A stretch of DNA of 49,179 bases from positions 1-49,179 of IMG/VR virus record IMGVR_UViG_3300003690_000014. One strand, written 5' to 3'. The notes under the pieces are model-generated. The model did no database searches. It was given only the letters and a program-made list of their open reading frames with translations, and had not been told where the DNA came from. Both the position numbers and the translations under genes were made by a program. Source of the DNA: a virus. Positions 20,090 through 45,845 of the stretch are shown here, piece after piece. Positions within the stretch are counted from its first letter, which is position 1, and the number at the start of each line of letters is the position of its first letter.

Positions 20090-20338
20090 TTATTGATAGG
20101 ATGATTTTCTATGGGCGGAAGTCTTCCCCTTCTCATTACCATTTAAGGCTGTTTTATATCTCTTTTCTTCCTTGATTGATTGAATTAACAAGCTACGAAT
20201 TACTTCGCTTTCGCTCAGTCCTGTCGGGAAAACAATCAATTCACGGAACTCTATGAGAAGTTGACGAGGAAGACAGAATACTTTCCTTGTCATTTCGTGG
20301 GAATAACTTACTTCTGCTGGCGATCTAAGACGTTTCAT
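20090..20338 (-). CDS. Small ribbon-helix-helix-like protein
   Basis: 82 residues; its ATG sits in a TGATG overlap with the stop of the minor-head gene. The segment about 17-55 (KVFCLPRQLLIEFRELIV, then LSESEVIRSLLIQSI) has the strand-helix-helix pattern of MetJ/Arc/CopG DNA-binding proteins, followed by a basic tail. It may regulate late transcription or act in packaging. An unrelated head accessory is possible. Confidence 0.55.
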   Translation of the reverse strand: MKRLRSPAEVSYSHEMTRKVFCLPRQLLIEFRELIVFPTGLSESEVIRSLLIQSIKEEKRYKTALNGNEKGKTSAHRKSSYQ

Positions 20339-21321
20339 CAGAAAACCCCCGGCTTGAATCCCGGATCGGGATGGGCCTCGTGGAAATTCGGTGGTACGTA
20401 GGGGATTACCTGTCCGTCCTTGAACAGTCCCCGCCGTTCCAAGTCACCTTTTGAAATCAAGTTTACCCCGTGTCGGCAATTGTATCCGAGGGGAGGTCGC
20501 ACGATTGACCACCGGGGATCTTTTGGGGTTGCCGTGAATCCCATTGCGGCGGCATGGTTGGGCCGTTCCCGATCGTCGGATATTCCCACCAGTTCAAGAG
20601 CGGGTGCCACTTCCTGCACATCTTCATCAAGAGCCTGGGCAAAGCGGCCATTCGAAACCGCGTTCGAGATATTAGTCCGATAGAGTACATCTGCGTACCA
20701 TCGGCTCCAGGGACCGATCTCCCGCATCATCTCTCCGAATTCATCTATTCCCTTTCCTTCCTTTTCCACTTCCACAAGGGCTTTCTGTACTTCCTTGGTA
20801 CGCCACATCGCCAACTTGTCATCGACGTTCCCTTCCGCAGCACGGGCAAGTGCGAAGACATGACCCTCATTGTAAAGGCGTGTGACTTCCCGGTATCCTT
20901 CCGCAAGCTTGGGATCCCGGCTCAGAATATCATCAATAGCTTCCTTAAAGGAAAGACTACTCAAAGGTGTCTTGTCTCCCGTAGGTTGGAGGGGGGGAGT
21001 CTTCTCACCAAACTTCGCGCTGCGATCCAGTGCGTTCATCTCCATCAATACCCGTTTCCGTCCGCGCATGTCAGCAAGGATCATCGTATGCTGAATAAGA
21101 GTAGCCATGTTCTTCCGCTCTCTCATCCTGTCTTCCCACGTTCCTTGGAAACGCGCCCATGCCATTCGTTTCACCGCATCCTCGAAAAGACGGCTGTGCT
21201 TTTCAAGCCACCTTTCCAGTTCTTCCTTCCCCGTAATCACAAATGAAACCTGTTTCGATCGTTCTGGGTTGGAAGTTGGATTGTCCTTGCCTTTCCATTT
21301 ACAGGATCCCCGTCTTCCCAT
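20338..21321 (-). CDS. Phage minor head protein (Mu gpF / SPP1 gp7 family)
   Basis: 327 residues. The C-terminal 130 residues carry the hallmark of PF04233: a YRTNISNAVSNGRFAQ helix (about 213-228), a conserved D-D-x-x-x-R-P-x-H-A-A segment (about 248-258), a P-x-x-x-W step and a PPLGYNCRHGVN motif (about 277-288). These proteins sit inside or at the portal vertex and help ejection or head assembly. The N-terminal 85 bases overlap the end of the upstream gene in another frame, so the true start may lie at a later Met. Confidence 0.8.
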   Translation of the reverse strand: MGRRGSCKWKGKDNPTSNPERSKQVSFVITGKEELERWLEKHSRLFEDAVKRMAWARFQGTWEDRMRERKNMATLIQHTMILADMRGRKRVLMEMNALDRSAKFGEKTPPLQPTGDKTPLSSLSFKEAIDDILSRDPKLAEGYREVTRLYNEGHVFALARAAEGNVDDKLAMWRTKEVQKALVEVEKEGKGIDEFGEMMREIGPWSRWYADVLYRTNISNAVSNGRFAQALDEDVQEVAPALELVGISDDRERPNHAAAMGFTATPKDPRWSIVRPPLGYNCRHGVNLISKGDLERRGLFKDGQVIPYVPPNFHEAHPDPGFKPGVF

Positions 21322-21578
21322 GCACGGGAAAGAGTGGTCACCATCTCTTCGGAAGCAGGATAAATCATGCCGATCCCAGCGAAACGAACGAATGCTTTCT
21401 TCGCTAACGGCCTCATCCCTACCCCTTGAGGCGTAATAAGAAGGTGAGTGGGATTCTCTACAACAACAGAAGCAAGTGGAGGGTGTATATCTATCTCATC
21501 AAATGCACTTTCTGCAGCCCAGACCGCAACCTCTCCTACTCCTGAAATTGCTATAACATGCCACATCTTTTCGTCCAT
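21237..21578 (-). CDS. Small protein between GroES-like and minor head genes
   Basis: 113 residues from the ATG at 21578, which overlaps the GroES-like stop (TGATG) and is preceded by GGAGAAGG. A longer upstream start is not needed. It is mixed alpha/beta, with a hydrophobic N-terminal beta-strand (WHVIAISGVGEVAVWAA) and a C-terminus rich in Asn/Gln/Arg. It overlaps the minor-head gene by 85 bases. Function unknown; it probably assists head assembly, as the operon position suggests. Confidence 0.55.
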   Translation of the reverse strand: MDEKMWHVIAISGVGEVAVWAAESAFDEIDIHPPLASVVVENPTHLLITPQGVGMRPLAKKAFVRFAGIGMIYPASEEMVTTLSRAWEDGDPVNGKARTIQLPTQNDRNRFHL

Positions 21579-22246
21579 CACACCTTCTCCGTAATCATAT
21601 GTACATCCTGTTCCTGACACAGCCTGTATTCAATACCGCCTACTTTTACAACCGCACCGGCATATCGTTGAAACACCACCTGATCTCCAGGAGTCAGTTC
21701 CACGGGGAGTCTTTTTAATGACGGTAAGTGCCATCCCCCTGGTCCTACTTTTACCACGGTTGCCCGTCGAACACCACTCTGGGCGTTCTGTTCATTGGGC
21801 AAATAAATATTACCACTTTCCGTAGTCTCTTCCTTTTCCGGTTCAATCAGAATGCTGTTAAACCGTGGATGAACATCCTTTATGTCCCACGTCTTTACAT
21901 CATTGAATTCCACGGTTGCCCACACCCCGTGTTCCTTGATGAATTTATAATCCTCTCCCCCCAGCAGCATGTCTTCACCCATGTACTGGATCGTCAGTGC
22001 GTAATCTCCCTCACGAATATCGTCAATCGGAATCCGGTGAGCGCTTCGCGTATTGGGAACCGATCGGCCTACGTCCATCACCTCACCGATGGCAAGTTCC
22101 GTTCCCTGATTGGACTTCTTTAGAAGATGAATCCCCCCCGCAGTTTTCTCCCTGTGAAGCATCCGTATCAGAACGTAATCCGCAATACAGGAAATAGTCT
22201 TCGGATCTATCTTTCCCGAAGACTCTTCGATAACCGTTCTACTCAT
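21578..22246 (-). CDS. Double-domain GroES-like co-chaperonin
   Basis: 222 residues made of two Cpn10 (GroES) domains in tandem. Domain 1 (about 20-110) has ADYVLIRMLHREKTAGGIHL. Domain 2 (about 128-222) has FNSILIEPEKEETTESGNIY, then RRATVVKVGPGG, LTPGDQVVF and a C-terminal strand (VVKVGGIEYRLCQEQDV), all characteristic of GroES. A normal GroES is about 97 residues; two fused domains are known from chloroplast Cpn20. Such a protein would cap GroEL and help fold capsid proteins, like T4 gp31. The GGI/GNI mobile-loop motif is visible in both halves. It directly precedes the head genes. Ribosome site GGGAG is 8 bases upstream. Confidence 0.8.
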   Translation of the reverse strand: MSRTVIEESSGKIDPKTISCIADYVLIRMLHREKTAGGIHLLKKSNQGTELAIGEVMDVGRSVPNTRSAHRIPIDDIREGDYALTIQYMGEDMLLGGEDYKFIKEHGVWATVEFNDVKTWDIKDVHPRFNSILIEPEKEETTESGNIYLPNEQNAQSGVRRATVVKVGPGGWHLPSLKRLPVELTPGDQVVFQRYAGAVVKVGGIEYRLCQEQDVHMITEKV

Positions 22247-22257: not shown

Positions 22258-23187
22258 TTAAAATCCATGAAGTTCCAGACCCGCAAACTTTTCCTTTCCA
22301 TGTTCCTTGAGGAGTTTCCTGATCTCAAAGTAGTACCAAGACTTTCCTTCCAGAACGATTCTCTCCTTCCGGTATCCCTCCCACCACTTTTCAGGGCATG
22401 CCATAAGTTTTATCCCGTTTTCATCCAAAGCCTGCTCGTACATCGAATTGATTTCTGGAATGGATTTCCGACCGGGCCAGCGGAGAATCTCCGATAACTT
22501 GTAATGAACGTGCTTTTCCGTAAGTCTACGTCGATTAGCGAATTGCAAATGCATGACGCCTCCCGAAGAAACTCCTTCCTTTTCCACCCTGGAAATTCCG
22601 TAGGGAAGCCTGTGATGATGATGGTAGCCATCACCAGAAGGCTTCCATGTAAGGGAAGATTCATCTGCAAAGGCGAGGGATAGATAGGATCGAGACCATA
22701 CACAATCGTCCGCCCGGTACTGATCAATATCTCCCCAGACAGGAACCATCGGATATTCAAGAGCGGCTCCGGGTTCAAGAGATAGAATCCGTTCCCGCAC
22801 GGTGGGGATAAGGTTTGCCGTAATCGCCTCGTCAGCATCGATAATGGCTACGTGCGTGGCTCCGTGCTTCCGGGCGAGAAGAAGGGAATGTTGGCGCACA
22901 TCCATCTCGTTCCACCACGGGTCACTGTTGTCGGGAACCTGTTTCATGAACTTCTCTCCCGGCTTGTACCGGCTTTCAGTCTCGACCTCCTTCATTGGTT
23001 GCCAATAGGAGTAATGGAGACGGTATGGATTCTCTCCCGTGATCTCCTGTATGATCGACAGGCTCTGATCCCAAGAGCGATCATCCACCACTACCAGTTC
23101 GTCCACCCACTTGAGAGCCGCTCTCATGGACATCCCGAGAATCCAGTCCTCGTTCTTTACCAGCATCACACCGATCAGTTTCTTCAT
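22258..23187 (-). CDS. Glycosyltransferase family 2-like
   Basis: 309 residues, with the ATG in an ATGA overlap with the Nudix stop. The N-terminal GT-A fold reads KKLIGVMLVKNEDWILG, then DELVVVDDRSWD (about 29-40) and the Asp-rich AIIDADEAIT (about 114-123), the usual sugar-nucleotide and metal-binding sites. The downstream part has HHHH (about 188-191), Trp and Tyr rich sequence typical of acceptor-binding regions. Substrate unknown. It is the last gene of the glycan cassette. Confidence 0.75.
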   Translation of the reverse strand: MKKLIGVMLVKNEDWILGMSMRAALKWVDELVVVDDRSWDQSLSIIQEITGENPYRLHYSYWQPMKEVETESRYKPGEKFMKQVPDNSDPWWNEMDVRQHSLLLARKHGATHVAIIDADEAITANLIPTVRERILSLEPGAALEYPMVPVWGDIDQYRADDCVWSRSYLSLAFADESSLTWKPSGDGYHHHHRLPYGISRVEKEGVSSGGVMHLQFANRRRLTEKHVHYKLSEILRWPGRKSIPEINSMYEQALDENGIKLMACPEKWWEGYRKERIVLEGKSWYYFEIRKLLKEHGKEKFAGLELHGF

Positions 23188-23693
23188 GCCATCCTCAAAA
23201 TCTTTTTCACTCTTTCAGGAATATCGTCCGAAAACTCTACAACACTCTTCTCCACCCACTTCGCGTGGGAATGTTGGTCACATCCAGCGGGATCCTTTGG
23301 ATAGCGAATGACCATAAGGAAAATGGCGTTTACCGTATGGGTTCCCTTTCCATGTCCGAAAGGATCCGTATCAAAGCAAGTCGTATCCCATCCCAGATGC
23401 CGGATATGAAGTGCCTTCATACCTACCTCTTCCAGAAGGATTCTGATGGCCGCCTCCGGCAATTCTTCTCCTTTATGGAGTCTCCCTCCCGGGACATACC
23501 ATTTTCCGGCTTCCGGCTCGTACTTCCGTAAACACAACAATATGCGGGACCCTTCCATGACAAGCAGATCCACACACGGGATCGTCATGAATTCGTGGAT
23601 CAGGCGGAAGTCGTCACCTCCAATCCAAGCCTTTCCCTGTACCATTGGATTGTCATCTTTAATCCTTCCGCCAATGATGTCTTCGGTTTCCAT
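23184..23693 (-). CDS. Nudix hydrolase, GDP-mannose mannosyl hydrolase-like
   Basis: 169 residues. The Nudix box region (PGGRLHKGEELPEAA then IRILLEEVGM, about 67-92) has the Gly, two Glu and the closing E-E-x-G but lacks the canonical Arg-Glu. That agrees with the GDP-mannose hydrolase (Gmm/NudD) branch, which hydrolyses GDP-mannose to mannose and GDP. The start at 23693 has GGGAG about 10 bases upstream but overlaps the epimerase gene by 94 bases; a Met at 23645 (153 residues) is the alternative. Its ATGA coupling to the next gene is clear. Confidence 0.7.
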   Translation of the reverse strand: METEDIIGGRIKDDNPMVQGKAWIGGDDFRLIHEFMTIPCVDLLVMEGSRILLCLRKYEPEAGKWYVPGGRLHKGEELPEAAIRILLEEVGMKALHIRHLGWDTTCFDTDPFGHGKGTHTVNAIFLMVIRYPKDPAGCDQHSHAKWVEKSVVEFSDDIPERVKKILRMA

Positions 23694-24526
23694 CCCAATA
23701 CTTCTCCCGCTTTCGTATTCGATCCAACCATTTTCATGATCTCGTTATTTCGGTAGGGAATGGAGAAATCAATCTCCGACTTGGAACCTGTTTCCTGCTG
23801 AATCATTCCAAGAAGATCTTTTATCGATGTCTCTTCGGAAGTGCATAGATTAAGCGGTCCTTCGTAGGACTTCTCCATTGCCAAGATAAGACCATCCACC
23901 ACATCTTCCACGTAGTTGAATTCCCGCGTCTGTTCCCCTTTCGTGGTGCGTACCTTTTGTTCCGAAAGAAAACGCAGGATGAATTCACCAACAACCGCAC
24001 GCATGGTTTGTCCGGGTCCGTAAATGTTGAAAGGTCGTACCACCCGGATATCGGCTCCCAGTTTCTGATACATCAACGCCTGCAGTTCTCCCCCGTACTT
24101 GCTTACGCCATAGGGGGATACCGGATTCGGTTTCATATCCTCGTGCCAGGGAGTCTCTTCCTGTATCCCGTAGACTTCGGAAGTTGACATGTAAAGCATC
24201 TTTATCTTCCGGTTCCAGCATGATTGCACCACGTTTGCCGTTCCCTTGGTATTCACATCCACGCATTCTTCCTGGTGATCCCATGACTTTCCAACGTGAT
24301 GGAATGCAGCGAGATGGTAAACCTCGTCACATCCTTCCAGTACTTGGAACACGTCTACTAGATATCGGATATCTCCCTCCAAGGGTACTACATGGGCAGG
24401 AAGCATCGCTTTCATGGGCGTTCTCGTGAATACCCCCACTTGATTGCCTTCTACCTGGGATAACTTCCAGACAAGGTGCGTTCCGACAAATCCCGTCCCT
24501 CCAAAGACAACTATCTTTTTACTCAT
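23600..24526 (-). CDS. NAD-dependent sugar-nucleotide 4,6-dehydratase/epimerase (extended SDR)
   Basis: 308 residues. N-terminal GGTGFVGTH (about 9-17) is the Rossmann NAD-binding loop; HLAAF (about 72-76), STSEVYG (about 114-120, Ser/Glu as in 4,6-dehydratases), and the Y-x-x-x-K pair in SPYGVSKYGGE (about 137-147) are catalytic. RPFNIYGPGQ and REFNYVEDVVDG follow. It could make a 4-keto-6-deoxy sugar nucleotide, the substrate for the Fcl-like enzyme encoded six kilobases upstream. GDP-mannose or a UDP/dTDP sugar are possible substrates. ATGA overlap with the next gene. Confidence 0.8.
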   Translation of the reverse strand: MSKKIVVFGGTGFVGTHLVWKLSQVEGNQVGVFTRTPMKAMLPAHVVPLEGDIRYLVDVFQVLEGCDEVYHLAAFHHVGKSWDHQEECVDVNTKGTANVVQSCWNRKIKMLYMSTSEVYGIQEETPWHEDMKPNPVSPYGVSKYGGELQALMYQKLGADIRVVRPFNIYGPGQTMRAVVGEFILRFLSEQKVRTTKGEQTREFNYVEDVVDGLILAMEKSYEGPLNLCTSEETSIKDLLGMIQQETGSKSEIDFSIPYRNNEIMKMVGSNTKAGEVLGWKPKTSLAEGLKMTIQWYRERLGLEVTTSA

Positions 24527-25047
24527 GCATTCTTCTCCTTTTCATCCAATCCGAAAGGTTCTTCATTCGATAAAATCAACGTCACGGGACGGGTAAACCG
24601 ATAAAACTCTGAATACTTGAACTTGGGAATGATCGTTTCGTACTGGTAGTTTCCTCCTCCCAGCGGGGGATCACAGAGGGCATCATGCAGGATAATAAAC
24701 TTTACCTTGTCCCGAAGAGACAACGCCACGTCCTTTCGGGTTTCTCCGGGTGCGAAGTCAATGAATGCGAGATCGTATTCCTGACCTGTCCATCCCGGCC
24801 ATTCCCCTTCCTCCACATTTATTTCCTTGACCAGTTCAAATTTATGCAGGTCACTTGCCAAGCCGGTAAACTTGCTTATCCATTCCGGATCGGTATCCAC
24901 ACTCATGAGCGGTCGTTCCATTACCTTCGCCATTCCGTGCAGCATCGGGGTGGATCCCCATCCGCACCCCAACTCCAGGATTCCCTTTCCCGTCTTTGCA
25001 ATCGCTGCCGCAAGTACGGGAAAATGACTCAGGTATCCCAAGTCCAT
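24523..25047 (-). CDS. Class I SAM-dependent methyltransferase
   Basis: 174 residues; ATG in a TAATG overlap with the upstream gene. Motif I GILELGCGWGSTP (about 22-34) binds AdoMet, then an acidic strand end SVDTD (about 49-53) and YDLAFIDFAPGETRKD (about 90-105) contain motifs II to IV. The protein is a short, compact methyltransferase, with no DNA-recognition domain. In this glycan cassette an O-methyl sugar transferase is the most likely role, though protein or small-molecule methylation is possible. Confidence 0.75.
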   Translation of the reverse strand: MDLGYLSHFPVLAAAIAKTGKGILELGCGWGSTPMLHGMAKVMERPLMSVDTDPEWISKFTGLASDLHKFELVKEINVEEGEWPGWTGQEYDLAFIDFAPGETRKDVALSLRDKVKFIILHDALCDPPLGGGNYQYETIIPKFKYSEFYRFTRPVTLILSNEEPFGLDEKEKNA

Positions 25048-25925
25048 TAAAGCCTCATTTCTTTCTTGAACTGCAGTCGGAAATCATCTGCCCACGCAAG
25101 ATGATGGGGAATCGTCTGCTCAATCAGAGGTCGAAGCATAGACCAATTCTCGTCGTCCCATGCAGGCCGTACCGTATGGGCATCCACATAGTTGTTCACA
25201 TTTGCATTCTTCCAAGAGGGTCTGTGCGCCCTGTCTAGTCGGTCTTTCGGAGGATGCCCTTCCCGTGCGATCCGGTGAATCCCGTTGGGATAGAATCGGC
25301 TTTCCTTGATCTTCCGACTCGAGTAATGCTCGTCGAAAAACCATTCCGCTTCCCAATCCTTCGGATCCGCTGCGCGTGCTTTTGCCAGTTCCCGAATATT
25401 ACTCTCCTCCAAGGTTTTCAATAGATTGTCTCGCACGCTCTTGCTGGGATCCAATCCCATCATCTCTCGCCATACCTTTACGCTCGCACTCTGGTGACAT
25501 GTCGGCCAATGAGTCTCCTCTTCTCCGGGATACCCGTTGTAGTAATAGAGCGTTATGTCCTTCTGATGCTGGTAGTAAAACTTCTTCCTCAACGGAAATA
25601 GATCCGCATCTGAAGGGATAATAATATCCTCTTCCGGAAAGTCCATCGCGGCTGCATGATGACGCACGCATTGCGAGAGGGTCGCTCCCTGGATTCCCTT
25701 TACGCCGTCTATCAGTTCGTATTGGAATCCAAACTTACGAATAGCGTTGTAAACCAATCCGCTTGTAGGCGCACCCCACGAAAGATTCGCCGCCTCATCC
25801 TCATCTCCGATGAGGAAGAGGATGGGTTCGTATCCAATCCACTCGCGCCACAACAACGCCGCGAAGATCAAGAGCGACGAGTAATCATGTCTCGTCGTGC
25901 AGCCGATTGATACTCTGTACGTCAT
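25047..25925 (-). CDS. Glycosyltransferase-like protein with Asp-x-Asp motif
   Basis: 292 residues. The segment IIIPSDADLFPL (about 99-110) carries the Asp-Ala-Asp typical of GT-A glycosyltransferases, on a beta-strand following a helical N-terminal half that starts with YRVSIGCTTRHDYSS. The second half is Trp/His/Tyr rich with a WFFDEHYSS segment (about 201-209). It resembles no common family that I can name. Role: transfer of a sugar in the cassette. Confidence 0.65.
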   Translation of the reverse strand: MTYRVSIGCTTRHDYSSLLIFAALLWREWIGYEPILFLIGDEDEAANLSWGAPTSGLVYNAIRKFGFQYELIDGVKGIQGATLSQCVRHHAAAMDFPEEDIIIPSDADLFPLRKKFYYQHQKDITLYYYNGYPGEEETHWPTCHQSASVKVWREMMGLDPSKSVRDNLLKTLEESNIRELAKARAADPKDWEAEWFFDEHYSSRKIKESRFYPNGIHRIAREGHPPKDRLDRAHRPSWKNANVNNYVDAHTVRPAWDDENWSMLRPLIEQTIPHHLAWADDFRLQFKKEMRL

Positions 25926-25952
25926 CCCGATACCTCTCCTAATGTTCGTCTT

Positions 25953-26672
25953 TTATGGCAATATCGCCTTCGCCTTCTCTACATCGAAGGCCGCTCCTAT
26001 GTGGCGGATGATCTTGTCAAGATCCGTCTCTTGTGGGTGAACCTCCATTGTCATCATCGCATCAGGATAGTTCACCACTTTCTTCCGCTGGTGAATGAAT
26101 GCCCATTTCCGCATGGCAGGCCAGAGAATGCGGTTCAGGTGAATCTGGTCCGATCCGTGACGGTTATAGTCAATGTCTCCCAGCAGGGATAGAACCTCCC
26201 GGCACTTCGTCCTCACCGCAGGCGCATTCATGGCGATCATTCCACCCATGAGAGGGCCGCAATGGGACTCACTGTCGAGGATTGCATGAAGCTCCGCTCC
26301 GCTTTCCATCGCCTCTTCCACCATGTTCCGGTCCCGATGCATCGGTAGACTGTCTACGTCTCGACAGACCATCCATCCAACCTCCTCGTCCAAGAGGGGC
26401 TGCATCCTCCATAGCATCGCCGCACACAGTTCCCGCGCCTCTCCCATGTTGATCAGCTTCACTTCCGGAGGGAGATCCTGAAAGGCGGGGAATTCCAGTA
26501 CGCGATCGTCATGGTGTATCCATACCTCGTAATCAGGGAACGCTTCCTTCGCCGCACGGATGATCGTGGGGATGAAATTGATGAAGAACTTTCCCCGGGC
26601 TACTCCCGCATTCGCACTTTCGTAGCCGCTCGAGGCGTTCCTGAAAAAAGACAGACTGTATACCTTCTTCAT
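25953..26672 (-). CDS. Glycosyltransferase-like protein
   Basis: 239 residues, ATGA overlap with the methyltransferase stop. An N-terminal FFINFIPTIIRAAKEAFP helix follows a strand (VYSLSFF). The sequence CRDVDSLPMHRD (about 107-118) has a D-x-D motif, and later HGSDQIHLNRILWP (about 170-183) looks like acceptor-site sequence of capsular/LPS-type glycosyltransferases. It probably transfers a sugar from a nucleotide donor. Confidence 0.7.
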   Translation of the reverse strand: MKKVYSLSFFRNASSGYESANAGVARGKFFINFIPTIIRAAKEAFPDYEVWIHHDDRVLEFPAFQDLPPEVKLINMGEARELCAAMLWRMQPLLDEEVGWMVCRDVDSLPMHRDRNMVEEAMESGAELHAILDSESHCGPLMGGMIAMNAPAVRTKCREVLSLLGDIDYNRHGSDQIHLNRILWPAMRKWAFIHQRKKVVNYPDAMMTMEVHPQETDLDKIIRHIGAAFDVEKAKAILP

Positions 26673-27193
26673 TCTTCCCTCGCCATAACAAGAATGCCTT
26701 CCACAAGGAAAGCCTCGTATCCCTTGTTGGCTGTAATCCGGATCATCTGCTCGTTGTGTCCGTCTTCGGACAGAACATATACCATCGGATCGTGATTCAG
26801 GACGTTCTCGTGGATAAAGATGTCCCGATCCATGTCACTCCCTACGGCGGCGATCACGTCGTAAGGTCCGGGATATTGGTTGAAGATCTCTCCCACTGTC
26901 AGGGTCCGTACGTAATATCCATCCAGAATCCGTGAAATACGTGGATCCGCAGACATGTACGCAAGGATGTACTTCTCGTTTTCAAACAGCTCTTCGGGGA
27001 GTTCCGTTCCCACACGAATGCCGTTCCATCCCCGTGCCGCCAGGATCTCGCAGATATCACCTGTGCCGTCTCCGATGGCGAGATAACTTCCCTTTCCGCC
27101 GTCTTTCCTGGCACGCCTGCGTATGAACTCTCCGGCCAGTTCGTTTTGCACTACAGATACAGGCACTTTTATATTTGTGTACAGGATACTCAT
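26669..27193 (-). CDS. SAM-binding methyltransferase-like protein
   Basis: 174 residues from the ATG at 27193 (GAAAGGG upstream); a longer frame from 27385 overlaps the preceding gene and is rejected. The segment YLAIGDGTGDICEILAARGW (about 36-55) has the G-x-G-x-G shape of a Rossmann/AdoMet loop, followed by an acidic GTELPEELF. Near the end, YDVIAAVGSD resembles motif IV. Substrate unknown; placed among sugar genes, so sugar methylation is likely. An NAD-binding role is a weaker alternative. Confidence 0.6.
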   Translation of the reverse strand: MSILYTNIKVPVSVVQNELAGEFIRRRARKDGGKGSYLAIGDGTGDICEILAARGWNGIRVGTELPEELFENEKYILAYMSADPRISRILDGYYVRTLTVGEIFNQYPGPYDVIAAVGSDMDRDIFIHENVLNHDPMVYVLSEDGHNEQMIRITANKGYEAFLVEGILVMAREE

Positions 27194-27206
27194 AAAGTGT
27201 GCCCTT

Positions 27207-27920
27207 TCAGTAAGAGTCCTGCGGCTTTTTGAACTTCTCAAGGTAATCTTCAAATCCATCCTTCTGGGAAGCCATGAATCGGTTCTTGTCTTCCTGCCAG
27301 TGAGTCCGACTATTGTCTTCCTGGTATCCCTCTTTCCTCTGTCTTCCAAATGCCCAATGATGATGATCCTGAACAAGATCATCACGCATCCAGAGGACTC
27401 CCAACTTTTCCGCGACTTCCTTCAGGATCTCATCTCCGTAGAAGTGGAAGAATTCCGTGGGCACCACGTACTCTCCGCCGAAAGCCTTTTCCAGCCATCC
27501 TTTGCCAAACCAGGGTGAACCGCAGATCCTAGCCGCCGCAGGCTTTCCCGTTGCGTCCATTCCCTGCCGGTCTCCGCAGGGTTGCATCACTCCAAAGCCG
27601 TCTGGGAATCTTTCAAGGTATTCCGCTGCGATCTCCTGTGCCGTATGGTTTGGATCGGGATCCATGTCATCCGCTGCGAGAATGAATATCTCCGCTCCCC
27701 GATCCGCTACCGCCCGGACAATCCGGTCACATGCCCACCAGTATCCCTGATAACCCATGCCTACACCCACCCAGTCGATATCCGACTCTATGAATGCGCT
27801 GTCCTGCACGTATACCCCTACCCGATAGCCCTTTTCACGCCATCGCGAGGCCGCTTTTATCCCCTTTTCTGGCATAAGCGAGGGGAAACATACCCAGACC
27901 TTATCTTCAAGTTCGTTCAT
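27207..27920 (-). CDS. Glycosyltransferase-like protein
   Basis: 237 residues, starting in an ATGA overlap with a short upstream frame. FILAADDMDPDPNH (about 79-92) contains the Asp cluster typical of GT-A donor sites, after an N-terminal WVCFPSLMPEKG. The C-terminal half has acceptor-like FFHFYGDEIL and a Trp/His-rich DDLVQDHHHWAFG stretch. Partner of the other transferases in the cassette. Confidence 0.7.
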   Translation of the reverse strand: MNELEDKVWVCFPSLMPEKGIKAASRWREKGYRVGVYVQDSAFIESDIDWVGVGMGYQGYWWACDRIVRAVADRGAEIFILAADDMDPDPNHTAQEIAAEYLERFPDGFGVMQPCGDRQGMDATGKPAAARICGSPWFGKGWLEKAFGGEYVVPTEFFHFYGDEILKEVAEKLGVLWMRDDLVQDHHHWAFGRQRKEGYQEDNSRTHWQEDKNRFMASQKDGFEDYLEKFKKPQDSY

Positions 27921-28060
27921 GTTTTGAAATCCCAGAAGGGAGTCGATGGATCGGGAAGACGCTGGATGAGAGACGACTTCCTCTTCTTCTTCTTCGCTCT
28001 TTGAGGGAGGTAGATCGACTCCCTCTGGGACATGTTATGTTGATTATCCGCGCCTCTCAT
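27917..28060 (-). CDS. Short basic open frame before a glycosyltransferase gene
   Basis: 47 residues from the ATG at 28060. The stop overlaps the next gene's ATG (ATGA), which supports coupled translation. The middle is very basic (about 23-28, five Lys and one Arg). No good Shine-Dalgarno site is seen, only GGAG about 16 bases upstream and AGG directly before the ATG. Could be a real leader peptide or spurious. Confidence 0.35.
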   Translation of the reverse strand: MRGADNQHNMSQRESIYLPQRAKKKKRKSSLIQRLPDPSTPFWDFKT

Positions 28061-28069
28061 CCTGATCGG

Positions 28070-28099
28070 ACTTTACTCCGCAGAGGAAACTCGTGTCAA
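28070..28099 (-). promoter_or_regulatory. Possible internal promoter in the glycan cassette
   Basis: Minus-strand TTGACA (28099-28094) and TAAAGT (28075-28070), spaced 18 bp, lie just after the stop of the upstream glycosyltransferase gene. A perfect -35 with a moderate -10 could raise expression of the second half of the cassette. Confidence 0.4.
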
Positions 28100-28714
28100 C
28101 TACTTTTTCGGTACGCGGTTCTTTAACCTTCGACTCGCCTGGTAATGCTTCACCACGATGTCGTCTGGATTCCGATGGCCGTATCGACGCGGGAAGTCAT
28201 CATAAATCCATACCCATTCGGGAGGTAACGGCTTTGCCGTGAGTTTATCTTTCCACTTTCCCCAGATGGACTTCCACGCGCATTGCTCCGGCGTGTCCGT
28301 GTTTCTCCACTTCTGCGTTTCCATTGTCCATTCCTCGAGGAATTCCTTTACCAACGGGGTGTTGGCAAAGTACAGCGTTCCTGTCAATACCTCCACGGGA
28401 TGATGCGGCCCTCTCTTGAATTCATGGAACGATATGTGGCAATCCTTGAATATCTCGAAATCCGGCTTGTTCATGAACTCCGCATCGGCATCCACGTAGA
28501 GGATTCCGTCCATGGATTCGAAATGCTCCAGGGAATTGAGAATGAATTCCGGCTTCCAACATACCGCATCTTGCCATTCCACCAAGCTTATCTTCTGAAC
28601 CGCGTGGTCAATACTATACTTCTCTAAAGATGCGGATAATCTTTTTACTTCCTTCTCGTAGCCATCTCCATCTTCCGTATAAAAAACGATGGTGAGGATA
28701 TTCAATGCAGCCAT
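28100..28714 (-). CDS. Nucleotide-diphospho-sugar transferase-like protein
   Basis: 204 residues with GGTGAG before the ATG. The N-terminus (LNILTIVFYTEDGDGYEKEV) and the DGILYVDADAEF segment (about 68-79) resemble the GT-A donor site of small nucleotide-diphospho-sugar transferases. Further on, LTGTLYFANTPLVKEFLEEW (about 109-128) is a conserved acceptor-side helix of that fold. It lies between two other cassette genes and is followed by the promoter-like sequence at 28070-28099. Confidence 0.7.
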   Translation of the reverse strand: MAALNILTIVFYTEDGDGYEKEVKRLSASLEKYSIDHAVQKISLVEWQDAVCWKPEFILNSLEHFESMDGILYVDADAEFMNKPDFEIFKDCHISFHEFKRGPHHPVEVLTGTLYFANTPLVKEFLEEWTMETQKWRNTDTPEQCAWKSIWGKWKDKLTAKPLPPEWVWIYDDFPRRYGHRNPDDIVVKHYQASRRLKNRVPKK

Positions 28715-28727
28715 ATCTCACCATCGC

Positions 28728-29423
28728 TCACGCCGAAGCGTGTAGAGAGGAAGTTAGATAGGTAATCGGATCCTCTTTCGGCCAGCACGTTACCGCACTG
28801 GCGGGATTCAAATTGATTACTTCCCTTCCACGGAGATGCCATGCAGCCCAGTTCTCGAAGTCGCTTTTGAAACTACGGTACTGTGCGTCTCCCGCACGGG
28901 GCTTCCCTCTTTTATCGTAATCTTCGTGATAGTTCACTTCTCTTTCTCCCCGCTCCTGACAGTCTACTCCCAGGAGACATATCGGATCAGCTTCCATGAT
29001 ATCAACCAGATTCAACGCGCCGATCATGGAATTCGATGAGTAACTTAATCCTTGATCAAAGTCTTTTGCCCAGAACTTCCCCTCTCTTACCGTTCTCAGG
29101 AAATGTACTCCCGGATCAACTTCTTCCACCAGTCTCTCAAACTTCCTGTCCAGCGCATGTAATACCTTTACTCCCTTGAATCCCGTCCATTCCGGTGTGG
29201 TTCCCCATAGGCGCGTGATCACATCGAAATCTTCACTGAACCATACCGCAGCCGTGGGAACGTCTTTGAATGCCCTGTTGATCACCACTACACGGGGATG
29301 GTCTGCGAGGAGACTCCAGTCGAAGTCCTGAAGGGAAGGTCCCCCTCCCACCAGGATGGCCTCCCTGTCTTTCCATTGCCCTCTGGTCAGTGGGAAGGAC
29401 ACGCTCCGTCCTCCCTCAAACAT
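28728..29423 (-). CDS. MptE/DUF115-like glycan-associated protein
   Basis: 231 residues with an excellent ribosome site (GGAGGAAGGGG). The N-terminal EAILVGGGPSLQDFDW (about 20-35) is the Gly-rich loop of the DUF115/MptE-like family (6-hydroxymethylpterin pyrophosphokinase fold). That family is often found next to sugar transferases, for example those that modify flagella or capsules. The GLSYSSNSMIGALNLVDIM stretch and LLGVDCQERGER fit the same fold. It overlaps the Fcl-like gene by 37 bases. Exact reaction unknown. Confidence 0.65.
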   Translation of the reverse strand: MFEGGRSVSFPLTRGQWKDREAILVGGGPSLQDFDWSLLADHPRVVVINRAFKDVPTAAVWFSEDFDVITRLWGTTPEWTGFKGVKVLHALDRKFERLVEEVDPGVHFLRTVREGKFWAKDFDQGLSYSSNSMIGALNLVDIMEADPICLLGVDCQERGEREVNYHEDYDKRGKPRAGDAQYRSFKSDFENWAAWHLRGREVINLNPASAVTCWPKEDPITYLTSSLHASA

Positions 29424-30313
29424 TCCACTACCCCTTCCTCCAAGCTTGTCGTGGCTTCCCAGTCGAGGAATGCCTTCGCCTTCCTCGTATCCAACAGCCT
29501 TCGCTTCTGGCCGTCTGGCTTCGTTCTATCCCATTCCACATCGAAATCCGTTCCCATCGTGTCCTGTATGATTTCAATCAGCTCCCGGATGGAAACTTCC
29601 CTTCCACTACCTAAATTTACCGCTTCCGTTCCTTCTATCGTCTGGACTCGATCTACGGCCCGGACTACCGCTTCCGCTGCGTCTCCTGCGTATAACAAGT
29701 CCCGCGTGGGCGTCCCTGTTCCCCATAGAGTGATCGAGTTGCCTTCCGCTTCCTTTACCTTTCGGATCATCGCTGGCAGAACGTGACTCGTTTCCAAATC
29801 ATAGTGATCGTACTTGCCATATAGATTCGTCGGTAGGAGGGTGATCGAGTTTAACTTGTATTGCCTGTGGTACGCTTCCAGACATTCCATCAACGCTCTC
29901 TTCGCTATTCCGTAGGGCGCGTTGGTGGGTTCCGGATAGCCGTTCCACAGAGTCGTCTCTTCGTAGGGGATTCTTCCTTCCGATGGGTACGAGCAGGTCG
30001 TCCCAAGGAAGACTATGCTGGTCACACCTTCCTGCACGCATGCGTCGAAGACGTTCAAACCCATTCGCATGTTGTCCTGAAAAAAGTCTCCCGGTTGGGC
30101 ACGGTTTGCCCCGATTCCTCCGCACCTTGCTGCCGCGTGAATCACTACGTCCGGAGCTATATCCCGCAGGATATATCCGAATTCATGCTTGCCCGTCCGC
30201 AGGTCAGCGTCTGCGCTTCCCAGTGCGGTCAGCTCTCTTCCCTGCTTTTTAAACTCTGCCTGGATGTTCTTTCCGAAAAAGCCCGTTCCTCCCGTAAGCA
30301 ATACCTTGCTCAC
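29387..30313 (-). CDS. fcl: GDP-L-fucose synthase-like epimerase/reductase
   Basis: 308 residues. The GTG start (30313) overlaps the portal stop (GTGA), coupling the cassette to the late operon. Rossmann loop GGTGFFGKN (8-16); active-site segments FLGTTCSYP (Cys109-type residue kept, the usual Ser is Thr), EPTNAPYGIAK (Tyr and Lys of the SDR triad) and TSHVLPA (the catalytic His). The match to E. coli Fcl extends through TLWGTGTPTRDLLY. Known reaction: GDP-4-keto-6-deoxy-mannose to GDP-L-fucose using NADPH. Its partner dehydratase is likely the epimerase-like gene at 23600-24526. Confidence 0.85.
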   Translation of the reverse strand: MSKVLLTGGTGFFGKNIQAEFKKQGRELTALGSADADLRTGKHEFGYILRDIAPDVVIHAAARCGGIGANRAQPGDFFQDNMRMGLNVFDACVQEGVTSIVFLGTTCSYPSEGRIPYEETTLWNGYPEPTNAPYGIAKRALMECLEAYHRQYKLNSITLLPTNLYGKYDHYDLETSHVLPAMIRKVKEAEGNSITLWGTGTPTRDLLYAGDAAEAVVRAVDRVQTIEGTEAVNLGSGREVSIRELIEIIQDTMGTDFDVEWDRTKPDGQKRRLLDTRKAKAFLDWEATTSLEEGVVECLREDGACPSH

Positions 30314-31836
30314 ACCCCTCTCGCTTCCTTCTCTTTCGTTCTGCGATCTTTACGCCGCTTCTGTCCTACGTCACGGCTTTCCCCCTGCCTCTCCATCTTC
30401 CTGCGTTCCTGCTTCTTTCCTTCCTTCTTGTCTTCCTTCTCTTCTGATCGGAGAGAATTTTTGTCATCCTCGCGGATCACGTCCTTGGACGCTTGCATCT
30501 CTATTTCCATCCTTTGGATGTCTTCCAGCGAGATTACCTCTTCGTCTTCGTCCGGTGGGGTGCGGTTGATCGTTTCATACCATTCGCTCTTCATGATCGG
30601 TGCGCCTGCCATCACGGACTCTTTGTTGATCTGCAATTCCGTAAGCGCGTCTTGTCGCTTGATCTGGTCACTCGTGAAATGCGGAGGCTTTGCCTCGTCT
30701 AGTCCTAACTTCACAATGTTGTGCCAGTTATGGTACAGGAAAGCATGAACGAGATCCCGCTCGAGAATCTCATCGAGATGCCTGCGGTCATCCTGATAGT
30801 ACGCTTCACTCGTATCCGCTTGTGTCTCCGCTTCCGCTCTCGCTCCCGATTTTCCTCCTCCATGCCCTGATGGCCGCACACTGCCGTTGAACAGCCGCGC
30901 TATCGTCTCGTCCCAATACCGGATGTACTCCATCGAGAATTTCAACGCTCCTGCCGGGGCGTCCTGGATCTCAACGTCGTCCGCTTCCTCCATTACCATG
31001 TAGTGTTCAGATCTATAGTTTTCCGCCAGCTTCTTTGCCGCTGCCAGAAGATCCTCGTTCGTCTTCGTCGTACTCCCCTGCCTTAAACCATCGAGCTTGA
31101 TCTTCATGATCCCGTTCGCGTACCGGTCCATGCCTTCACTCATCTTCTTGACGCCAACCGTCTTACAGTAATGCGCGAAGTACAACGCCTGTATCACACC
31201 ACGGCCATAGCCAACTCTGTCCTCTTCATTGGTGAAGACGTATTCCACCAGGTTTCGTCGCATGTCGTCCGTTATGCGGAACCAGCCGTACTTGTTGGAA
31301 TCAAACATCTCAAGGTGGACACCTATCTTTTCAATAAAGCCACCCTTCGACCAGTCGGTTACCCAGTGGATTCTTCGACGGTCTACGTTGGTCATCCTCT
31401 CCGGGATGTACCATTCCATCTTCGGTAAGCCGTCGAGCGCAATACCCCTCTTGTCCCAATGAATGAACTCGTAGGTACGCCCTATCGTGAACGCATCCGC
31501 CAGTCTTCGCCGCGCTGCGTTGAACTCCGCTATGTACCCGATACCTTCCCCTACAATCCCTGCCAATTTCTTGGAGTCATCCTTCATCCCTTTGGAAATG
31601 TTCTTCGACTTCGTAGCGTGTCGGTTTGCGATCACACGCCAAGGGCGAACTACGTTGCGGTTTCGCCTCTCCAACTCCGCCAGTACCACCGGCTCGTTCC
31701 GGATGATCTCCCAGATGTCTGGCTCACTTCTTAACGCCAGATCCGGGTCGAATACCCACGGACTCCTATATGCCGCACTTAACTGATATGCGTATAGCAG
31801 ATCATTTTGGCTTCTGATTACGAGTGGTATGCCCAT
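30310..31836 (-). CDS. Portal protein (Mu gp29 / DUF935-like)
   Basis: 508 residues, directly after the large terminase. Features of the DUF935 portal family: an N-terminal helical part, a RHATKSKNISKG region, the GYIAEFNAARRRLADAF helix, the WYIPERMTNVDRRRIHWVTD core, and later GYGRGVIQALYFAHYCKTVG. The C-terminal 60 residues are extremely charged (Lys/Arg/Glu) and probably disordered. The portal dodecamer forms the DNA entrance at one capsid vertex. Confidence 0.85.
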   Translation of the reverse strand: MGIPLVIRSQNDLLYAYQLSAAYRSPWVFDPDLALRSEPDIWEIIRNEPVVLAELERRNRNVVRPWRVIANRHATKSKNISKGMKDDSKKLAGIVGEGIGYIAEFNAARRRLADAFTIGRTYEFIHWDKRGIALDGLPKMEWYIPERMTNVDRRRIHWVTDWSKGGFIEKIGVHLEMFDSNKYGWFRITDDMRRNLVEYVFTNEEDRVGYGRGVIQALYFAHYCKTVGVKKMSEGMDRYANGIMKIKLDGLRQGSTTKTNEDLLAAAKKLAENYRSEHYMVMEEADDVEIQDAPAGALKFSMEYIRYWDETIARLFNGSVRPSGHGGGKSGARAEAETQADTSEAYYQDDRRHLDEILERDLVHAFLYHNWHNIVKLGLDEAKPPHFTSDQIKRQDALTELQINKESVMAGAPIMKSEWYETINRTPPDEDEEVISLEDIQRMEIEMQASKDVIREDDKNSLRSEEKEDKKEGKKQERRKMERQGESRDVGQKRRKDRRTKEKEARGV

Positions 31837-31872: not shown

Positions 31873-33531
31873 TTACCACCCCGGAGGTCGTTTTACCTCT
31901 ATAAAATCCCACGCCGTTGGCGGGCCACTCCTTCGCCTCTCTTCCCTCCGCTCATCCTCCTCCGGTGTGGAGGATGAGGCCGTTGTGGGGATCGCCGTTC
32001 CTCCTCTTCCCCTTATCCTTTCCGCTATCGCTACTCCATATGCCACTACGTCACACATGTCGTCGTGCGCTGCATTCGGAAATGTACATAACTCGCTTTC
32101 AAATGCGTCCAGCCAGGAAGTGTACGACGGGATCCAAAACCTGCCGTCTGCCAACAGGTTCGTCGCTCTCATCATTCGTCCCATCTTGTCCGTGTCGATC
32201 CTGTAGAGAACGTCTCCTCCTCGCCTCGTCGAGATCTCCCTTACCGGAAGCCCCTCCCTCCTGGCAAACTGGAATAGACTCAGTTGAAACGCCACGGTCT
32301 CCATTCCAATAACTGAGAAATCCCATCGCCTGTGAAACGCTTTCAGCTTCTTTAGAATGTCCGGGCCTTCCATCCGCTCTCTTATCAAGTCTAAAAGCGT
32401 CAGAATCGGTAAGCCTTGCGCCGTTATAAATACACTCCATGCCGCGAAGACCGTGTAGTCGGGATCCGTCTTCTGTCCTCTGCCCGGTCCTCCCAGTTCT
32501 TTCTCCCTAGCCGCCAAGTCTGCCGTGCAGAATCGAAAATGACTCATCGCGTCATACTGGTATAACCCGTCCATTACGCTGATTCGCCCGTCCCTTAACA
32601 CATCATAATGCTTCAGCCATTCCCGCTTGATGATCCCCCCCTCCATCGGTGCGGGTCTCTGCTGTAACTGGCCTGCCACTCCATACGGACCGAGCCTTCG
32701 CTTCAAATCCTCCAGAAAGTCCTTCGGGAATCTTACCTCATCCAGGATCTCTCCCAAGTTCCTTCGCGGATCCTTTACCTCCGGAGCGCATTCTGAATCC
32801 CCTTCCCATTCCATCGGCACTTTCAGATGCGTCCATCCTCCCTGCTTCAAATACAAGCCTGTAGCGTCACTCTCGTGTAGTCTCTGCTGGATCAATACCT
32901 CCGCCGCTTCCGGTGAATCTTTACGTGAGGGCCATGTCCTGCATAACCATTCCGTGACACTCTCCCTTACCACCTCGCTCTCCGCTCCTGTCGGATCTTG
33001 CGGATCATCCAGAACCAACCTCAATCCACCAAAACCGAGAATGTTGCTCGATCCCAAGGAACTCGCAAACATGCTCCCCTGCGCCGTGTTCCGGAAGTAC
33101 GCCTTCTCCCGCTGCTCTCCCGCAAATCCCACGATGCTTCCAAACCTGTCCTGGTAAAACTTGGACTCCACTACCTGCCTTCTCCGCAGGTTGTCCCGCA
33201 ACGCCAGCCTCAACGCATAACTGGCAAACATGAATGGCATAGACGGCATTCTCGTCCATTCCCAGCACGGCCACAGCACACTCACAATCGAACTCTTGCC
33301 CGTTCTTGGCGGTACGTTGATGATCAGCCGCTTCAGCTTCCCTTCCGTTACCGCTTGAAGATGTTCGCAGATCATCTTCAGGTGCCAGTTATCCTTGAAT
33401 TGGACTCCAGGCTCGATGACGTGCCAGCACGCTTTGACGAACTCATGCAGCGACTGGGGGAGCAGTACCTTGTCGATCTCTATGAGATCTAAAAATTCTT
33501 TTGGAATGTCTATAGGGGACCCGTCACTCAT
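31873..33531 (-). CDS. terL: Terminase large subunit
   Basis: 552 residues. ATPase: Walker A PPRTGKSS (about 74-81) and Walker B LRLVLDDPQD (about 169-178), with coupling residues after it. Nuclease: Asp in FCTADLAA, then IGMETVAF and the Asp-rich AAHDDMCDVVAYG near the end, matching the RNase H-like triad of terminases. It cuts and translocates phage DNA into the prohead. The ATG has no Shine-Dalgarno site and lies inside a set of 18-bp repeats; translation may rely on coupling to the short frame ending at 33524. Confidence 0.95.
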   Translation of the reverse strand: MSDGSPIDIPKEFLDLIEIDKVLLPQSLHEFVKACWHVIEPGVQFKDNWHLKMICEHLQAVTEGKLKRLIINVPPRTGKSSIVSVLWPCWEWTRMPSMPFMFASYALRLALRDNLRRRQVVESKFYQDRFGSIVGFAGEQREKAYFRNTAQGSMFASSLGSSNILGFGGLRLVLDDPQDPTGAESEVVRESVTEWLCRTWPSRKDSPEAAEVLIQQRLHESDATGLYLKQGGWTHLKVPMEWEGDSECAPEVKDPRRNLGEILDEVRFPKDFLEDLKRRLGPYGVAGQLQQRPAPMEGGIIKREWLKHYDVLRDGRISVMDGLYQYDAMSHFRFCTADLAAREKELGGPGRGQKTDPDYTVFAAWSVFITAQGLPILTLLDLIRERMEGPDILKKLKAFHRRWDFSVIGMETVAFQLSLFQFARREGLPVREISTRRGGDVLYRIDTDKMGRMMRATNLLADGRFWIPSYTSWLDAFESELCTFPNAAHDDMCDVVAYGVAIAERIRGRGGTAIPTTASSSTPEEDERREERRRSGPPTAWDFIEVKRPPGW

Positions 33532-33594
33532 AGGGGACCCATATGAAATAGGGGACCCATGTAGAATAGGGGACCCGTAATCGATAGGGGACCC
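33512..33594. repeat. Five 18-bp tandem repeats across the terL start
   Basis: The core ATAGGGGACCC starts at 33512, 33530, 33548, 33566 and 33584, exactly 18 bp apart, each followed by a variable 7-bp spacer. The array covers the first codons of terL and the region just before it. The 18-bp period is a multiple of three, so in the terL frame it reads as GSPI plus two variable residues. Ordered repeats next to the terminase genes are typical of terminase-binding (cos/pac) sites. Confidence 0.85.
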
Positions 33595-33730
33595 AGTGTT
33601 CCCTTACGGGCTTTAGGATTAAGGGGTCCGGTACGGACCCTTTCTGTAACCCCCTCCCCCTCAAGGGTTTGCGTTCACTCCCCAACTCCCTGCCCTCCAA
33701 CCCCTTGCAATGGTATCCGTGTACACTCAT
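33524..33730 (-). CDS. Short frame with Trp-Val-Pro-Tyr repeats between terS and terL
   Basis: 68 residues from an ATG at 33730; the 3' end is made of the 18-bp repeats read as WVPY. The stop overlaps the terL ATG by eight bases, which could couple terL translation. The N-terminal half is basic (Lys/Arg rich). No strong ribosome site and repetitive composition, so it may be only a by-product of the repeats. Confidence 0.35.
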   Translation of the reverse strand: MSVHGYHCKGLEGRELGSERKPLRGRGLQKGSVPDPLILKPVREHWVPYRLRVPYSTWVPYFIWVPYE

Positions 33731-42658: not shown

Positions 42659-43126
42659 TTATCTATCTGTTTCCCATTCAGCATATCCGTTTGCCGTTTC
42701 TGCTACTCTGACTCGGACGCAAGAGGGATACAACCTTCCAAGGACGATGGCGATGTTCTCCGCAGAGGGTTGGATCTGGTCGAAGGGTGGGATATCGTTG
42801 AGCATCTGGTGATCGTATTTCATCAAGGCATTTTTGAAATCGTCAAAGTCTACTCCTGCAAATCCCCGAGCATCCGGTTTGTCTGTCTCGAATACCGCCT
42901 CGATCTCGAAGTTGTGACCGTGGGGCCGGGAGCATTTCCCTTTGTATGGAGGACGCAGAAAGTGCCCAGCAACGAGGGTACATTTCACCACGGCACGGAT
43001 TCTGGATTTCTTTTCCTCCTTGACGGTGCAATCAGAATTGATGATATGCTGTCGCTCTCCGTTGATAAACGACCAAGGGGTTGCTTCGGTTATGGTTTTC
43101 AAGCAAAGCTCGCAGATCATGCCCAT
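42659..43126 (-). CDS. queD: QueD, 6-carboxy-5,6,7,8-tetrahydropterin synthase
   Basis: 155 residues. After a 40-residue Cys-rich N-terminal extension, the PTPS/QueD fold shows the zinc site His55 (in VAGHFL), His69 and His71 (PHGHNF). The catalytic Cys65 (GKCSRP), the DHQMLND motif (105-111) and catalytic Glu143 (VAET) are present. Known role: first committed enzyme towards 7-deazaguanines (preQ0), made from dihydroneopterin triphosphate. It overlaps the DpdA-like gene by 10 bases. FolE, QueE and QueC are not seen in the window, so the host must supply the rest. Confidence 0.85.
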   Translation of the reverse strand: MGMICELCLKTITEATPWSFINGERQHIINSDCTVKEEKKSRIRAVVKCTLVAGHFLRPPYKGKCSRPHGHNFEIEAVFETDKPDARGFAGVDFDDFKNALMKYDHQMLNDIPPFDQIQPSAENIAIVLGRLYPSCVRVRVAETANGYAEWETDR

Positions 43127-43791
43127 AAATCACCCTCCTGTTTCTGTTGGATTGCTTCGATTGTTGATTGTCTTTGGTATCTCTTTACCACAATTTCTAG
43201 ACATTCGGCAGGGGTCAACCAAGGGAAATCCTTTGCCATTCCTATTGAATCTCTAAACCAGTTAGTCGAATCAACGGAATCGAGTCCAGGGAGATGAGTA
43301 TAGGCTCGTAAAGCCCAACCGTGTACATGGAGATCATCTGGAATCTGTTCGAGAAAATCTCGAATGACTCTTTCTTTCCCTTGTCTGGGAGGATCAAGCC
43401 CGATTGCAATCCATGTTTTTCTTTCTCTTGCTAATGATACCAAATCGGGGATGAGTTCGGGAGGATCAGTATCGTGCCATGTAGGAAATGACCAAGGGAC
43501 TGCCTCGTAATTTTTCAATCCTTTCTTCCAGTTACCGGAAATGTCATCCAACCCTGCGACTGCTTCCGCTACAGGTTCAAACCGTTCTGACCACTCTCGA
43601 AACTCTCCTATATCTATCTGAGTCCCTGAGTTTAGTACCGAATAGGCTCCTGAATCTATTAGGAGTTTTCCATAACTGGGAACATATCGGTCCATCCAAT
43701 TTGAATAACATCCATAGGACATGAGGACGGGCATACCCTTGACTTTATCAGCTTGGATTTGACTCCGGGGAGAGGCAAGGTAAACCTCCAT
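43117..43791 (-). CDS. dpdA: DpdA-like DNA/tRNA guanine transglycosylase
   Basis: 224 residues from the ATG at 43791 (TGATG overlap with the upstream stop). Motifs of the TGT/DpdA TIM-barrel: LLIDSGAYSV (43-52), AGLDDISGN (79-87), WIAIGL (127-132), DLHVHGWALRAYTH (153-166) and LDSVDSTNWF (170-179) with the candidate catalytic Asp. These correspond to the base-exchange site of tRNA-guanine transglycosylases and phage DpdA. With QueD next to it, the likely role is to insert a 7-deazaguanine into phage DNA. A tRNA target is the main alternative. Confidence 0.7.
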   Translation of the reverse strand: MEVYLASPRSQIQADKVKGMPVLMSYGCYSNWMDRYVPSYGKLLIDSGAYSVLNSGTQIDIGEFREWSERFEPVAEAVAGLDDISGNWKKGLKNYEAVPWSFPTWHDTDPPELIPDLVSLARERKTWIAIGLDPPRQGKERVIRDFLEQIPDDLHVHGWALRAYTHLPGLDSVDSTNWFRDSIGMAKDFPWLTPAECLEIVVKRYQRQSTIEAIQQKQEGDLWA

Positions 43792-44021
43792 CACCTGACC
43801 TTCCGTTTGTAGGTAGCTTTCTTCCGTTCCTTTTTCCGGGTGAAGTTCTCTTCAGATGATTCAATGACGGAGAGGGCGTAATCCTCCTGATTCTTTTTTC
43901 CACTTTTAATCCACTGTTTCATATCCTTGAGGTTTGCCTGTTGAACGATTTCGGGAATCTTGTTTTTAGTCATCGCTTGAAGATATCTCTCCAATAGATA
44001 GGTCTGCTCTTCCTTTAGCAT
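43791..44021 (-). CDS. Small basic protein of the deazaguanine operon
   Basis: 76 residues from the ATG at 44021 (GGAGGAAGG upstream); a TTG at 44036 is not needed. Mostly helical with a basic tail (FTRKKERKKATYKRKVR) that could touch nucleic acid. It directly follows the structured leader and is coupled by TGATG to the DpdA-like gene. Function unknown; an accessory to the modification enzyme is possible. Confidence 0.6.
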   Translation of the reverse strand: MLKEEQTYLLERYLQAMTKNKIPEIVQQANLKDMKQWIKSGKKNQEDYALSVIESSEENFTRKKERKKATYKRKVR

Positions 44022-45816: not shown

Positions 45817-45845
45817 ATTCTAAAACAAGTGTAAACGGATGTCAA
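45817..45845 (-). promoter_or_regulatory. Sigma70-type promoter for helicase and deazaguanine genes
   Basis: Minus-strand TTGACA (45845-45840), 17 bp, TAGAAT (45822-45817). It sits at the 3' end of the methyltransferase gene, so the start site falls about 15 bases before the helicase ATG. The spacer has TTTACAC, like the other strong promoters. Confidence 0.8.

Follow-up and report, generated by a model that had tools for sequence, protein, structure and literature searches.

An eleven-gene glycan cassette conserved between the portal and head genes of a phage group, with a possible role in virion glycosylation

Introduction

Virion glycosylation has been established experimentally in few phages. 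For capsid glycosylation, the chlorovirus PBCV-1 relies on soluble transferases that work in the cytoplasm and on a GDP-L-fucose pathway (PMC5408694), and capsid-protein glycans of the mycobacteriophages Che8 and Rita (cluster F1) are reported in work cited by two later papers (PMC11256854, PMC12619734). Here we describe a glycan cassette of 11 consecutive open reading frames (ORFs; genes a to k) on the minus strand, positions 30313 to 22258, of an IMG/VR virus record (IMGVR_UViG_3300003690_000014), the 49,179 bases of which are hereafter called the window. The cassette lies between the portal and head genes, and we propose, with a rough probability of 0.55, that it encodes a soluble assembly line that, in the manner of chlorovirus capsid glycosylation, builds a decorated oligosaccharide on a protein of the virion.

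The proposed system would resemble that of PBCV-1, in which the virus encodes soluble transferases of GT-A type, a GDP-L-fucose pathway and a methyltransferase, and the glycan is assembled on the capsid protein in the cytoplasm (PMC5408694). However, PBCV-1 is a eukaryotic virus of algae, its genes are not gathered in one head operon, and its product and acceptor are known; in the cassette, no gene was clearly identified as GMD. The mycobacteriophages are likewise tailed phages with glycosyltransferases of their own, but the glycosyltransferase genes of Maravista (cluster F1) lie near the 3' end of the genome (PMC11256854), in contrast to the 11 genes here, some of them for sugar-nucleotide enzymes, which separate the portal from GroES/MuF. 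Cyanophage P-SSM2 (PSSM2_257-271) also carries a run of genes for epimerases, a methyltransferase and several transferases, and S-SCSM1 has GMD, Fcl and GDPMH as well (PMC9602691). These cyanophage clusters differ in belonging to large T4-like phages, in lying among metabolic genes, in being read as host cell-wall genes and in lacking portal/GroES synteny. The host recognition cluster of pelagimyophages has glycosyltransferases inside the structural region too, but it is hypervariable, non-syntenic and accompanied by tail fibres, whereas the core of the cassette is syntenic and placed between the portal and GroES/MuF (PMC7029224).

Virion glycosylation is already known from mycobacteriophages and chloroviruses; what is new here is how large the cassette is, that it sits in the head operon and that several lineages conserve it. 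Searches of an open-access literature collection, in which few subscription papers are included, yielded no account of a block of this kind. A syntenic head-operon cassette of at least 11 genes in several lineages would make multi-enzyme particle glycosylation a stable phage trait. Moreover, the cassette consists of expressible, testable genes, and relatives differing by single sugar genes constitute a natural experiment.

Position and packing of the cassette

On the minus strand, the gene order is TerL, a Mu-type portal, the 11 closely packed ORFs, a tandem GroES, a 127-aa protein, MuF and an 82-aa protein, followed by a 512-aa scaffold-like protein, a 167-aa protein and a Mu gpT-like major head protein. 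An earlier note, made from the letters of the window alone, had described a glycan cassette between portal and head genes, and both its coordinates and its description proved correct. TerL matched phrog_38 (8e-73). The upstream boundary is the portal protein (30310..31836; this and all features given below as ranges with two dots are on the minus strand), which matched PF06074 (3.7e-28), and the downstream boundary is the tandem GroES (21578..22246), which matched PF00166 in two stretches (2.3e-26). The MuF-like minor head protein (20338..21321) matched PF04233 (1.8e-12).

Most junctions are overlaps, in agreement with the coupling that had been noticed, including that of the first gene to the portal stop. 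The portal stop overlaps the start of a by 4 nucleotides (nt; GTGA, -4), and the further spacings are -37 (a/b), +13 (b/c), +179 (c/d), -4 (e/f), +27 (f/g), -1 (g/h), -4 (h/i), -94 (i/j), -4 (j/k) and +11 (k/GroES), so that the 179 nt from c to d form the sole large gap. For gene e, the ATG at 27193 was preferred over the GTG at 27385, which would produce a 179-nt overlap with d. Codon usage and G+C content of the cassette match those of the structural genes. Scans for promoters and terminators gave results at or below chance level.

Conservation in other lineages

The block was found in five further lineages, represented by IMG/VR contigs L013, L014, L098, L099 and L100, several of which are incomplete. 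Scanning with a TerL profile yielded 80 loci. This portal and the cassette occur in only the closest two (L013 and L014, TerL ~50%), and the remaining 78 showed no cassette homologue within the available flanks. A profile search with gene d added L098, L099 and L100. Of five loci returned by a portal-profile scan, four have the cassette downstream and one (L003) breaks off within the portal; every portal relative with enough downstream sequence has the cassette. These distant relatives were reached only once the profiles contained rows from other lineages; when a served as the sole query, or when the alignments of g and b were limited to two or three window-clade rows, the scans recovered no contig other than the sister L010. 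No match was obtained in a near-identity DNA search of phage records, no phage isolate was matched by tblastn with the portal, g and d, and at E 1e-5 the phage collection contained no match to d or to the portals of the window and of L098.

The block directly follows the portal in L013, L014, L098 and L100, that is, in four of the five lineages and in all with a visible portal flank, and the order b-c-d-f-g-h-k is a shared core. The comparison of related phages that the earlier note had suggested thus revealed the same transferase order in all five lineages. In L098, the most complete relative, the order is portal-b-c-a-d-pyruvyltransferase-FkbM-f-g-...-h-...-SDR-k-GroES-[114 aa]-MuF, the block ending at GroES and then MuF as in the window. 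L013 reads portal-b-c-a-d-e-[130 aa]-f-g'-g''-h-...-SDR-k, with a second copy of g. L099, whose contig begins inside the block, reads b-GT-c-d-pyruvyltransferase-[f+g fused]-...-h-...-GT10-like-...-k-MuF, so that MuF follows the block in both L098 and L099. L014 (portal-[126 aa]-b-c) and L100 (portal-b-c'-c-d-GT-f) run to the end of their contigs. In L099:3608-5128, the f and g homologues are fused into one 507-aa protein.

Identities between the window and its relatives are 34-43% for the portal and 41-51% for TerL, and 31-47% for b, 25-38% for c, 42-48% for d, 37-51% for f, 29-32% for g, 35-59% for h and 42-45% for k, with d, f and h the best-kept cassette members. Gene i, by contrast, shares just 27-29% identity with the SDR that takes its place in L013 and L098, and the decoration genes (pyruvyltransferase, FkbM, GT10-like) vary among the relatives. 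The transferase core has diverged along with the portal and is retained, while sugar-supply and decoration genes are swapped; the SDR position (i) seems to have been exchanged and the fucose synthase Fcl (a) lost or moved.

The sister contig L010 (~84-88% DNA identity to the window) has the cassette at the same location, and L009 and L011, from other metagenomes, contain its 3' part followed by GroES and MuF. L010 is without gene a, the portal GTGA joining b directly, and has a second g-like gene between f and g that is 34% identical to g. Between the window and L010, dN/dS (non-synonymous to synonymous substitution rates) was 0.03-0.16 in nine cassette genes and 0.25 for e, compared with 0.04-0.11 in structural genes; dS of gene i was saturated. 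The ten genes common to the window and L010 are under purifying selection.

Such gain, loss and shuffling (L010 without a and with an extra transferase, extra genes in L098 and L099) would also be expected if the block were loosely kept cargo, a set of mixed sugar genes at a hotspot, useful in some hosts only and making no single product. However, the transferase core is fixed in place and order across lineages and is under purifying selection, and we regard loosely kept cargo as improbable. A recent insertion of the block was ruled out by synteny and codon usage. "Inserted", the word used in the earlier note, gives the wrong impression: in relatives, the block adjoins the same portal wherever the portal flank is visible, which makes it a conserved resident, and it is best read as a conserved part of the head-morphogenesis operon in this phage group.

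Transferase core, sugar-supply genes and putative methyltransferases

Four genes have independent support as transferases by profile or fold, namely b, d, g and k. Gene b (28728..29423) is a GT42/DUF115-like transferase candidate (phrog_4603, 5e-15); it groups with the sialyltransferase-like proteins of phrog_4603, which were matched by 7/7 lineage members, and its profile matches CstII-type sialyltransferases at E 4e-4 over the N-terminal 34 positions only. Gene d (27207..27920) is predicted to be a GT-A-like glycosyltransferase: its AlphaFold model, with a predicted local distance difference test (pLDDT) score of 79, matches GT-A enzymes including chondroitin polymerase, cellulose synthase and the PBCV-1 capsid transferase. 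The weaker model of gene g (25047..25925; pLDDT 55.5) matches glycogenin and GT8, suggesting a GT8/glycogenin-like GT-A enzyme. Gene k (22258..23187) is GT2-like with an IIDADE motif (PF13704, 2e-5), its score lying just under the Pfam cut-off (25.5 vs 27.5 bits), and a k profile built from five sequences touches GmaR.

Gene c (28100..28714), which had no match in family libraries, is a glycosyltransferase candidate with an invariant DxD (D75 and D77 in 7 sequences of 6 lineages), and gene f (25953..26672) is another with a CRDxDxL motif in which R104, D105 and D107 are invariant. Genes c, d, f and g have almost no family-library matches, and each retains invariant aspartates across lineages. 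The prior estimate of "at least five glycosyltransferases" was a good guess, supported by profile or fold for b, d, g and k, whereas c and f are candidates by motif only. Common descent of c, f and g was considered, and profile comparison gave no detectable relation.

Gene a (29387..30313) is a GDP-L-fucose-synthase-type epimerase/reductase, the Fcl-like gene recognised earlier. It matches GDP-fucose synthases in the PDB at 2.6e-57, and the conserved cysteine, YxxxK and SHV positions of the solved enzymes align; against NCBIfam Fcl it scores 252.6 bits, under the equivalog cut-off of 500. Gene i (23600..24526) is an extended SDR of the 4,6-dehydratase/epimerase class (PF16363, 1.6e-45) with a 4,6-dehydratase-like STSEVYG motif. 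Its nearest families are LegB and UXS, with gmd weaker (60 bits vs a cut-off of 415), and the substrate of gene i is not readable from its sequence. Gene j (23184..23693) is a Nudix hydrolase (PF00293, 1.5e-14) nearest to GDP-mannose mannosyl hydrolase or AraR. Its best NCBIfam family is GDPMH, yet its 39.6 bits do not reach the cut-off of 146.

Two methyltransferases had been named, again a good guess. Gene h (24523..25047) is weakly methyltransferase-like (Methyltransf_24, 14.2 bits) and is kept in L010, L013, L098 and L099; a profile search with h gave no genome matches. Gene e (26669..27193) is Rossmann-like and possibly a methyltransferase, has no family match and is kept in L010 and L013.

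Proposed assembly of a virion glycan

None of the 11 products has a membrane segment, the top 19-residue hydropathy mean in the block being 1.49, and no Pfam match to flippase, polymerase or lipid-linked transferase families was found in the block. Stepwise assembly on a cytoplasmic acceptor is suggested because the cassette combines soluble enzymes, nucleotide-sugar supply, several transferases and decorating enzymes with no membrane or lipid-carrier step. We propose that i and a would provide or modify nucleotide sugars, in the window phage probably a GDP-deoxyhexose (for instance GDP-L-fucose), while j would trim the pools of GDP-sugars. The soluble b, c, d, f, g and k would work in the cytoplasm during head assembly, adding sugars stepwise to a phage head or neck protein, and h, perhaps also e, would methylate the sugar chain. 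The virion would thereby acquire a decorated oligosaccharide whose synthesis would need no lipid carrier, flippase or ligase and which could serve adhesion, stability or hiding of the particle. Given the constant position of the cassette between the portal and GroES/MuF, the most economical acceptor would be a protein of the head or neck, and the f+g fusion in L099 suggests that these two enzymes catalyze consecutive steps. Since sugar-supply genes are shuffled around a fixed transferase core, the glycan would differ between strains. We infer late expression, the identity of the sugar, the protein target and the benefit.

Virion glycosylation, one of the alternatives offered in the earlier note, thus gains support from synteny with the structural module, soluble enzymes and the lack of lipid-carrier, flippase or ligase genes among the scanned proteins. 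Another of those alternatives is that the cassette alters host lipopolysaccharide (LPS), capsule or another surface polysaccharide, for instance as a barrier to superinfection. Surface polysaccharides commonly involve pyruvyltransferases and O-methylation, and gene k has a distant homologue (25%) within the P-SSM2 cluster. Further, S-SCSM1 and P-SSM2 carry like sets (Fcl, GMD, GDPMH, transferases, methyltransferases), read by their authors as cell-wall/LPS genes (PMC9602691). However, surface remodelling is at odds with the lack of membrane segments in all cassette products; no initiating transferase, flippase or polymerase was found among those window proteins that were scanned; and several lineages keep the cassette at a fixed place in the head operon, whereas metabolic genes surround the P-SSM2 set. 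We therefore consider host-surface remodelling unlikely, though deserving of some weight.

The transferases might instead put sugars on a modified base of the phage DNA, possibly 7-deazaguanine. Phage DNA glycosylation is well known, soluble transferases are compatible with a DNA acceptor, and the window has QueD-like and TGT/DpdA-like genes, which adjoin at 42662-43794 (minus strand) and suggest 7-deazaguanine in the phage DNA. Against this, the DNA-modification genes lie ~13 kb from the block, in the replication region, and QueD- and TGT-like queries found no match in the contigs of the five relatives, which may be incomplete (the TGT query had no positive control). The longest of these, the 48 kb contig L098, has the cassette and no detectable QueD or TGT-like gene. 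Glycosylation of 7-deazaguanine, also raised before, thus loses some support, and we give DNA glycosylation little credence. A DNA-methyltransferase-like gene is present at 45823-46404.

Several points weigh against virion glycosylation. No Ser/Thr-rich domain is prominent enough to name an acceptor. When cyanophages carry gene sets with comparable content, the usual interpretation is that they act on the host surface. The GMD expected to feed gene a is not clearly gene i, and gene a itself is absent from sister L010. Foldseek matches of the gene d model also include sugar nucleotidyltransferases, which have a related fold, and the PBCV-1 transferase is one among many GT-A matches. Finally, c and f are assigned as transferases from motif alone, and gene e is without clear assignment.

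In its fullest form, the proposal of virion glycosylation would be that phages of this group synthesise a complex oligosaccharide themselves and build it up, within the bacterial cytoplasm, directly on a protein of the head. Glycosylation would then be a fixed part of head assembly, tied to the tandem GroES; the sugar chain would be fucosylated, methylated or pyruvylated depending on the member, with a kept transferase core and exchangeable supply genes. Such a phage counterpart of chlorovirus capsid glycosylation is put forward tentatively, at slightly less than even confidence.

Additional features of the locus

The noncoding spacer between c and d (27921..28099; 179 nt) is ~92-93% identical to that of L010, above the flanking genes. 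A long stem is possible in it, a 17-bp stem being common to the window and L010 (z -2.15, 4/200 shuffles as good), and the spacer had no match in Rfam. In L013 and L098, the Fcl gene occupies the exact position of the window's spacer; the spacer was tested as an Fcl remnant and showed no real similarity.

Homologues of d occur in contigs of Phycisphaerae, planctomycete, deltaproteobacterial and Thermoplasmata metagenome-assembled genomes (MAGs), origins too mixed for naming a host. Two of these contigs look phage-like and contain parts of the same cassette, away from any recognised portal: L101, in a Deltaproteobacteria MAG (d-FkbM-pyruvyltransferase-k), and L109, in a Thermoplasmata MAG (c-d-f). 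In Phycisphaerae MAG contigs (L103-L108, L110), some d homologues are two in tandem and several are near an SDR gene; these contigs are perhaps the cellular source of the d family.

Directly upstream of TerL, short repeated segments are found at 33524-33600, where an overlapping ORF reads IGDPYEIGDPCRIGDP. The tandem GroES is a single 222-aa protein with two Cpn10 domains inside the head operon. It follows k in L009, L010, L011 and L098, with 34% identity between L098 and the window, and none lies between k and MuF in L099. Roseobacter phage CRP-901 also has GroES in its late region.

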